Below, one piece after another: positions 29,111-30,695 of a stretch of DNA of 64,000 nt. Position 1 is the first letter of the stretch. The number at the start of each line of letters is the position of its first letter. The stretch is from assembly GCA_018058245.1 (NCBI GenBank), contig JAGPCC010000001.1:1-64000 (forward strand). Direction: 5' to 3'. A program made the translations under genes and the position numbers. A model generated the notes under the pieces. The model was not told the DNA's origin. It saw only the letters and a list, made by a program, of their open reading frames with translations, and made no database searches. This DNA comes from Verrucomicrobiales bacterium (lineage in GTDB: Bacteria > Verrucomicrobiota > Verrucomicrobiia > Verrucomicrobiales > DEV007).

Positions 29111-30205
29111 TCACCAGGATAAATCGTCGATTCGCTCCTCGATCTGGCCGACCTTTTCTTCAAGCTCTACGGCATCCATGGGACTTGCTTCTTCGTCCGA
29201 CCTCACGATAAATAGGTCTCTCAATCGAACCTCAACCAACTCACGTATTTTCTCAAAATCGATAGGTTTAGGAAGCCCTTCATTGGGATCTGCGTCGATA
29301 AAGGGAGCGAAGAGAGGGGAACCAATTTCATCAATGTAGGATTTACAGAATTTACGCAGATGGCCTTCGTCCGCCGGACCGCGCTTCAACAAATCGTCTT
29401 CTGCGTCAGTGACTTCGTGCTCGGGGTGGCGGTTCTTTTCGCCCAGTTCCTTGTAGCAATCAATCCAGATATGGGGATATCCCCTTCCATTCAAGACACC
29501 CCGGAGTGGTGATTTTCCTTCATAGTGGAACTTGAGCCCGCCACCCGCACAGGAGAGGATCAAGTAGGCGAGCTCGACCGACACAACAAAACGCCGAGGC
29601 GTTGCCAAGGTGCCGAGGCGAAATCCGATATCGATGGCTGGACCGACGAAATCAAACGAAATGGGAGACTTTTCCCCGTCCGTCGGAATCGCCGCATTCC
29701 CAACGGGAAATCCGGCCAACCAAGCGCTGGCTTTGAAGTGAATTGGTAAGGGCTTTTCTCCATACACATGGTAGGTCACAGCCTTGCTGACAGCTGCCTT
29801 GAATGCGATGAGATGCAATTCGACCTGACTACGATGAGTAATCTCAGCAACAAAAACCAACTCATCACCGAGCGCCTTCCAAAGCAGTGCGGGGGCCAAA
29901 TGCTCTGGACGGTGATTCTTCGAGTGAAGCGTCTCGGCGTGGGCCGTGGACAGAAAATTGGGAAATCCGCTGTAGAATGAAGTGAAAAACTCTAGCCACC
30001 CCTGCGCATCGGTCCTTTCGGCCTGATGTTTGAATGCCGTCGAACCGACCACGTCGACGCTCAGAAACAGACGAAGACGAGGTTCGGCAAGGGCGGTCAG
30101 GGACGACTCAGAAATCTCCAGTTGAAAGGCCAAGGACGTTCGCGCGAATTTTGATCGTTTGCGTGGAGACGTTAAATCGGGCCGCCATGGCTTCGACGTT
30201 GCCAC
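29111..30205 (-). CDS. Class III nucleotide cyclase-like domain protein
   Basis: 364 residues from a GTG at 30205. Residues about 45-215 resemble a class III adenylate/guanylate cyclase: LFLSVDVVGSTAFK (first metal Asp, analogous to DIVGST), KALGDELVFV (second metal Asp), and FVGPAIDIGFRLGTLA, analogous to the GxxVNxAxRL motif, in which the Asn is replaced by Asp and the Arg kept. The C-terminal third is unclassified and acidic. The reading frame overlaps the upstream ImmA/IrrE gene by 98 bases; a TTG at 30133 is an alternative start, still overlapping by 26 bases. Either way translation is probably coupled. It could synthesise a nucleotide signal, but activity is unproven and the Asn change leaves doubt. 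Confidence 0.68.
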   Translation of the reverse strand: MATSKPWRPDLTSPRKRSKFARTSLAFQLEISESSLTALAEPRLRLFLSVDVVGSTAFKHQAERTDAQGWLEFFTSFYSGFPNFLSTAHAETLHSKNHRPEHLAPALLWKALGDELVFVAEITHRSQVELHLIAFKAAVSKAVTYHVYGEKPLPIHFKASAWLAGFPVGNAAIPTDGEKSPISFDFVGPAIDIGFRLGTLATPRRFVVSVELAYLILSCAGGGLKFHYEGKSPLRGVLNGRGYPHIWIDCYKELGEKNRHPEHEVTDAEDDLLKRGPADEGHLRKFCKSYIDEIGSPLFAPFIDADPNEGLPKPIDFEKIRELVEVRLRDLFIVRSDEEASPMDAVELEEKVGQIEERIDDLSW

Positions 30206-30695
30206 CGAAATTATTCCACTCTTCCTGGAAGGAATCCGTGGGCATCAAAAATCCCGCAGCGAACCAATTCGCCTCCCACTCAGTCGGGTCGCTTCCCTCG
30301 CGATTGATTTTGATCTTTTTCTCGCCGAAGAGAGAGTGGAGGAAGTAATGCCCGAGTTCGTGAGCGATCGTGAATCGGTCGCGAAACGGACCGGTGTAGG
30401 GTGACAAGAAGATCGTGAAGTCACCAGGGCCTTCAACGTGGATGGCACCGTCTTCTCGGCCTTCCCTCCAAGACCTGACCTTGATTCGCCCCCCGAGTTT
30501 TTCCACAATCGGACTCAAGTCTTCGCCGGGCGAAAGTTGTAACCGTTTGGCGATTTTTGAAGCCAGGTTTTCAACAGTCTTTCGTGGTAGACCGGTTGGT
30601 TCTGGGCGAGGATCTCCTTTCGCTTCGAGATTCAAGCCCGTGCTCCGGCTATCAATTCCTGAATCTGCGAACATCGGATCTAGGGAAGAACTCAT
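30108..30695 (-). CDS. ImmA/IrrE-family metallo-endopeptidase
   Basis: A 195-residue zinc peptidase. The catalytic HELGH motif lies near residue 114 (TIAHELGHYFLH) and the third ligand Glu in EWEANWFAAGFLMP, the ImmA/IrrE family pattern; C-terminal helix EAMAARFNVSTQTIKIRAN is the usual helix-turn-helix-like tail. There is no separate N-terminal HTH domain. Family members cleave DNA-binding repressors (ImmA cleaves ImmR; IrrE/PprI cleaves DdrO) to switch on transfer or stress genes. No repressor gene is adjacent; instead the next gene, overlapping its 3' end, encodes a cyclase-like protein. The N-terminal 30 residues look unstructured. Confidence 0.9.
   Translation of the reverse strand: MSSSLDPMFADSGIDSRSTGLNLEAKGDPRPEPTGLPRKTVENLASKIAKRLQLSPGEDLSPIVEKLGGRIKVRSWREGREDGAIHVEGPGDFTIFLSPYTGPFRDRFTIAHELGHYFLHSLFGEKKIKINREGSDPTEWEANWFAAGFLMPTDSFQEEWNNFGGNVEAMAARFNVSTQTIKIRANVLGLSTGDF

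Follow-up and report, generated by a model that had tools for sequence, protein, structure and literature searches.

An ImmA/IrrE-type protease gene paired with a gene for a predicted class III cyclase-fold protein: a probable two-gene signaling cassette of bacteria, plasmids, and phages

Proteases of the M78 family normally cut a regulator that is encoded next door, as described for ImmR, DdrO, and CapH (PMC10233336), and ImmA proteases also act as antitoxins in RosmerTA and as a hub of the NetFlax toxin-antitoxin network (PMC10440598). Here we describe a locus in a 64,000-nucleotide stretch of Verrucomicrobiales DNA (the window) where such a protease has a different kind of neighbor. The pair resembles ImmA/ImmR, IrrE(PprI)/DdrO, and CapP/CapH in that an M78 protease adjoins its partner, and the best PADLOC model (capP) and best fold match (PprI/IrrE) of the protease come from these systems. 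Their partner is an HTH repressor, whereas ours is a protein predicted to have the fold of class III nucleotidyl cyclases. Furthermore, the window protease has no equivalent of the C-terminal portion found in CapP and IrrE, and both a CapH-type HTH repressor and the CBASS genes that accompany it in CapP/CapH-regulated CBASS are absent from the window locus. RosmerTA (RmrA/RmrT) is likewise a mobile unit of two genes, one of them for an ImmA-domain protein. However, the RmrA models begin to match only at about position 131, the HTH part being missing here, and the cyclase-like partner matches no RmrT or other PADLOC toxin family.

On the side of the cyclase, the nearest comparison is Pycsar, likewise a small mobile operon that encodes a class III cyclase fold (here a predicted one); in Aureimonas and the phages phiC2/phiCD27, a PycTM gene adjoins the pair. 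Unlike Pycsar, the cyclase-like protein matches no PycC model of PADLOC (E up to 1), and its base-selecting residues, a Lys/Asp pair, differ from those that PycC of clades B, D, and E is reported to have. Moreover, the constant partner is a protease, a cyclic-nucleotide receptor is usually absent, and the window's genome has no PycTM. A preliminary description of this DNA had judged the layout not to be a canonical CBASS or Pycsar one, and in our comparison it fits neither. The tested features exclude membership in Pycsar, in CapP/CapH-regulated CBASS, and in RosmerTA. In its presumed working, the pair most resembles a sensor of CapP type coupled without intermediary to a cyclase of Pycsar type. 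We found no paper naming the pair in the open-licence literature, and a recent description is possible.

The protease gene lies at 30108..30695 on the minus strand (from the open reading frame list) and encodes 195 aa. Its product belongs to Peptidase M78 by domain (PF06114, Pfam E = 1.4e-21), by its HExxH motif with a distal Glu, and by the match of its modeled fold to PprI/IrrE. Two family alignments place the zinc-binding HELGH motif at residues 112-116 (30348..30362, minus strand) and the distal zinc ligand at Glu139 (30279-30281, minus strand). H116 is invariant in them, and H112, E113, and E139 are conserved at 90% or more, which upholds the zinc protease of the preliminary description. 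The capP match (3.6e-26) covers model positions 3-150 of 242, and the RmrA models match more weakly. The AlphaFold model (pLDDT 88.4) has PprI/IrrE 8sln as its top PDB match (E 1.1e-5), over the core only. Pfam and PADLOC revealed neither an HTH nor a C-terminal sensor domain in the 195 aa, and Pfam and the fold match gave no cyclic-nucleotide-binding domain, leaving a bare catalytic domain. Large ImmA fusions at four other loci (L060, L100, L101, and L108) are probably read-through of open reading frame calling, as no extra Pfam domain exceeded the curated cut-off.

The partner gene (29111..30205, minus strand) would encode 364 aa from a GTG at 30205 or 340 aa from a TTG at 30133 (30131..30133, minus strand). 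We prefer the TTG as the probable true start because the initiator Met of a near relative (L019) aligns precisely with Leu25 of the window protein; the conserved part of the family begins only at about residue 42. The two minus-strand genes overlap by 98 bases from the GTG and by 26 from the TTG, and the reading frames, the extent of the overlap, and the motifs SVDVVGSTAF, GDELVF (within WKALGDELVF), and VGPAIDIGFRL are all as the preliminary description had them. Sequence searches up to E = 1 returned no Pfam (Guanylate_cyc included), NCBIfam, or PADLOC match. The only family matches were phrog_18024 and phrog_6174, both PHROGs of unknown function. Nevertheless, an AlphaFold model built from a profile of 87 homologues (pLDDT 88.3, pTM 0.85) had class III cyclases exclusively as its top Foldseek matches in the PDB, with CyaC 1wc4 best (E 4.5e-9), followed by Rv1900c 1ybt, CyaB 3r5g, human soluble guanylate cyclase, and Ma1120, the last at the highest TM by target (up to 0.79). 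The profile also matched Rv1900c by sequence (E 3.4e-5). On the strength of the model, we predict a class III nucleotidyl cyclase fold, and an unrelated fold, the outcome that would have undone the preliminary description, is ruled out by these matches. Beyond the fold, residues 250-364 (29114..29458, minus strand) form a helical C-terminal tail in the model, which we propose as a candidate region of contact or cleavage.

Much of a cyclase active site is retained. The metal-binding Asp51 (Me1) of SVDVVGST (30053..30055, minus strand) is Asp in 86 of the 87 homologues, with one gap. The segment K110-ALG-D114-E115 (29861..29878, minus strand) supplies a base-selecting Lys and the second metal-binding Asp in the family alignments; Lys110 and Asp114 are each found in 87/87, where conservation is biased because WKxxGDE was the scan pattern. 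Among 18 homologues found without that pattern, GDE occurs in all and the Lys in all except phiCD27, which has Arg. The third segment, D185-FVGPAI-D192-IGF-R196 (29618..29653, minus strand), aligns as a base-selecting Asp (Asp in 84 of 87, Glu in the remaining 3), an Asp at the position of the transition-state Asn, and the catalytic Arg (87/87). We take Lys110 and Asp185 to occupy the positions of the base-selecting Lys/Asp pair of adenylyl cyclases, and from this pair the substrate is predicted to be probably ATP. The protein therefore shares with the class III adenylyl cyclases CyaC, Rv1900c, and Ma1120 the predicted fold, two metal Asp (D51 and D114), the catalytic Arg, and the Lys/Asp pair. 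It differs from them in its extra C-terminal helical tail, in its constant protease partner, and in lacking the transition-state Asn.

The change from Asn to Asp, already pointed out in the preliminary description, is real and invariant, with Asp192 in 87/87 homologues. Judged from the alignment, it could mean that the cyclase chemistry is altered or lost, and it poses a clear question about that chemistry. However, the columns of D192 and R196 correspond to N and R in CyaC and to H and R in Rv1900c, which thus also lacks the Asn. Rv1900c is reportedly an active adenylyl cyclase, and since it has His at this position, an enzyme without the Asn need not be dead.

Our analysis reveals a conserved unit. 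Homologues were gathered from genomes, plasmids, phages, and viral contigs, and linkage was counted over 95 non-redundant copies that either had ImmA upstream or offered at least 600 bases to search. In 88 of them, the next gene upstream, read in the same direction, was an ImmA gene (that of L054 recovered by tblastn), so the co-occurrence on which the preliminary description depended is borne out. The gap between the genes has a median of -4 bases; 63% of pairs overlap, and 85% of the gaps fall between -40 and +30. Linkage was also recovered by whole-genome searches made without the peptide pattern, for most matches among relatives and for 5/5 in the Aureimonas set. When a profile of the cyclase-linked ImmAs was run in reverse against 142 relatives, 11 of the 12 top-scoring matches adjoined a cyclase, after which the score dropped from 166 to 81 bits and the two next-best ImmAs adjoined HTH genes instead. 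Together, the 88/95 linkage and this reverse test rule out accidental adjacency. Tree distances of the two genes correlate (r 0.63, against 0.23 for the best of 1000 permutations), a correlation that still includes shared species history. No natural fusion of ImmA and cyclase was found among the homologues. Thus, the protease and cyclase-fold genes stay together in the same order, most often with overlapping or closely abutting ends, and the catalytic residues of both are kept except for the replaced Asn. At two loci (L069:5935-6992 and L103:5209-6294), the cyclase gene appears split into two frames downstream of an intact ImmA, possibly through decay or assembly error.

The cassette is widespread and sporadic. 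By the organism names of scan matches together with plasmid and phage records, its hosts belong to nine or more phyla (Verrucomicrobiota, Pseudomonadota, Actinomycetota, Planctomycetota, Campylobacterota, Cloacimonadota, Fibrobacterota, Bacillota, and Spirochaetota). Inside each group sampled it is rare, being present in 12 of 191 relatives, 3 of 388 genomes of the phylum sample, and 5 of 201 around Aureimonas. The closest homologues reside in Verrucomicrobiales MAGs. The host genome itself (5.0 Mb, 427 contigs) holds a second, diverged pair on another contig (C339, L029:1460-3112), which is not a recent duplicate since the two cyclases are only about 33% identical. A viral scan with the single protein gave no match, but one with the alignment did find viral copies. 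Leptospira phage LE1 carries the cassette, its cyclase-like protein being gp80 and its ImmA (gp81) being annotated "immunity region protein," as do Clostridioides difficile phages phiCD27 and phiC2 and plasmids of Leptospira, Mycolicibacterium, and Tistrella. On one of these, pMYCCH.02 of Mycolicibacterium chubuense, a second and different ImmA/IrrE gene (L034:4617-5192, plus strand) lies just upstream of the cassette. We read the pair as a self-contained, horizontally mobile two-gene signaling cassette.

The surroundings hold no third constant gene. No Pfam family occurs in more than 3 of the 79 or 88 immediate neighbors on either side, and the downstream gene is co-directional with the cassette in only 40 of 101 cases. 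Likewise, only 10 of 118 loci have an HTH-like open reading frame no more than 1 kb away, and no HTH repressor partner was seen at the window locus, where the pair is flanked by SHD1-domain and Vps10-like proteins (weak Pfam matches). A hidden third gene or repressor was sought by comparing neighbors on both sides with Pfam and PADLOC and by searching for small HTH open reading frames; none was common. PADLOC did find scattered defense genes near cassettes, among them Druantia DruA, a type III methyltransferase, mad3, AriA, and AbiLi.

PycTM, the membrane effector of Pycsar, adjoins the cassette in two lineages. It stands divergently upstream of the cassette in Aureimonas ureilytica (L072:4736-5224, minus strand; Pfam 6.4e-9) and convergently downstream in phiCD27 (gp36, L037:7480-7998, minus strand) and phiC2 (p40), with Pfam 3e-12; the two phage genes are annotated only as hypothetical protein. 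These two independent cases of adjacency suggest that the cyclase makes a diffusible nucleotide. Of 50 cassette genomes, 8 have a PycTM that scores above the cut-off; it lay beside the cassette in 0 of 4 cassette-bearing Aureimonas relatives and was absent from the window's own genome, while in the phage search the phiCD27/phiC2 type was confined to those two cassette phages. As a general effector it was rejected, being adjacent in two lineages only (Aureimonas and phiC2/phiCD27).

Several exceptions to the standard arrangement involve other regulators. Five of the seven copies without ImmA form one clade (L033, L090, L096, L113, and L115), in which a STAS gene is directly upstream in two and a SpoIIE-type phosphatase adjoins in one (L090:2984-4154, L096:5635-6804, and L033:6010-8473); this sister clade may have a second signaling role in partner switching. 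Among the members measured, the tail after the YP motif is 50-71 aa long in the ImmA-less clade versus a median of 119.5 aa in ImmA-linked proteins. The copy of strain H5_VER2 (L022/L047, L022:8718-10177) lacks ImmA yet keeps its motifs intact, and a tandem-HTH XRE gene lies divergently at a distance of 18 bases. In Aquabacter sp. P-9, the cyclase (L078:6001-7368, plus strand) is fused C-terminally to an XRE HTH_3 domain (Pfam 4e-13) with ImmA still upstream. Partners that replace or extend ImmA are thus transcriptional or partner-switching regulators of STAS, XRE, or SpoIIE type. A C-terminal NUDIX domain was found in the cyclase of Cohnella fermenti (L114:5923-7260, plus strand; Pfam 2.1e-10), with which a seeded search returned little but NUDIX matches and so gave no information on the family, and the phiCD27 cyclase (L037:5830-7416, plus strand) has a NUDIX-like C terminus by a weak PHROG match. 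Conversely, an orphan ImmA of the cyclase-linked subfamily (L207:1260-3212) sits directly downstream of a YhcG/DUF1016 PDDEXK nuclease in a genome (G107) with no cyclase at E 0.001.

The preliminary description proposed a signaling or defense module in which the cyclase product controls the protease or the protease cleaves a repressor. A signaling role is well supported. For defense there are only suggestive signs, namely, the presence of the cassette on phages and plasmids, PycTM in two lineages, and the scattered defense neighbors. As to direction, we favor, by analogy, a relationship absent from that proposal, namely, that the protease controls the cyclase. Like IrrE and CapP, ImmA may be a stress sensor, which here would act on the adjoining cyclase in place of an HTH repressor, with the C-terminal tail as the most likely site of cutting or binding. 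The cyclase would thereby start to make a cyclic mononucleotide, with ATP as the probable substrate, and the signal, or the drain on nucleotides itself, would set off a response, either protective or abortive, by way of PycTM where it is adjacent and of host targets elsewhere. The likeliest use by phages, plasmids, and chromosomes would be against competing phages or after DNA damage. We arrive at this reading because M78 substrates usually adjoin the protease, tail length tracks partnership with ImmA, the replacing partners are regulators, and PycTM is found next to some copies. Against it count the lack of a nearby cyclic-nucleotide receptor in most copies, that of the window among them, the absence of PycTM from this genome and its adjacency in two cases only, and the invariant Asp, which could mean altered or lost chemistry. 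On balance, a stress-sensing ImmA that acts on the tail and thereby switches nucleotide output is a serious possibility that approaches an even chance.

The roles could be reversed, with the cyclase as sensor and its product binding ImmA, which would then degrade host or phage proteins, much as in Pycsar with a protease in place of PycTM or PycTIR. Two genes would suffice for such a system, in keeping with the lack of any other conserved gene, catalytic residues are conserved in both proteins, and the mobile, sporadic spread is as expected. However, ImmA has no cyclic-nucleotide-binding domain, the M78 proteases established so far cut specific repressors rather than acting as general proteases, and PycTM beside two copies suggests another nucleotide receptor there; we regard a protease effector as unlikely, if still worth serious attention. 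The invariant Asp could instead mean that the cyclase-like protein senses nucleotides without catalysis and regulates ImmA allosterically, replacing the GAF-like sensor domain of IrrE, with ImmA then cleaving an unlinked repressor. The confinement of the match with IrrE/PprI to its core and the correlated gene trees are consistent with this. Yet the metal Asp, catalytic Arg, and base-selecting residues are near invariant, beyond the needs of binding, Rv1900c manages with His for the Asn, and the PycTM neighbors point to a signal being made, so that a purely sensory role seems rather improbable. More doubtful again is a toxin-antitoxin system of RosmerTA type, with the cyclase as a toxin, through an NTP drain or a toxic cyclic nucleotide, that ImmA destroys or restrains. 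It has precedent in the ImmA antitoxins of RosmerTA and NetFlax (PMC10440598) and would suit an overlapping two-gene mobile unit. Nevertheless, RmrA antitoxins have an HTH domain that the window ImmA lacks, and the intact cyclase without ImmA in H5_VER2 and the orphan ImmA of G107 show that neither strictly needs the other.

Whether ImmA acts on the cyclase or the cyclase on ImmA, the pair may represent an unnamed class of nucleotide-signaling immunity that bacteria of many phyla share with plasmids and temperate phages. An ImmA/IrrE protease would there exert direct control over a novel clade of class III cyclases with Asp for Asn, or be under their direct control, and the product of these cyclases is possibly non-standard. 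We consider this a tenable proposal, somewhat short of even. If true, it would link ImmA/IrrE proteolysis, which takes part in the DNA-damage response, the induction of prophages and ICEs, and the activation of CBASS, with the cyclic-nucleotide immunity of Pycsar and CBASS. The cassette is small and widespread, and in well-known phages such as LE1, phiC2, and phiCD27 it has long been annotated as "hypothetical protein" and "metallo-protease." Judging from sequence, these two genes make up an unnamed unit that is probably a compact switch for stress or anti-phage signaling.
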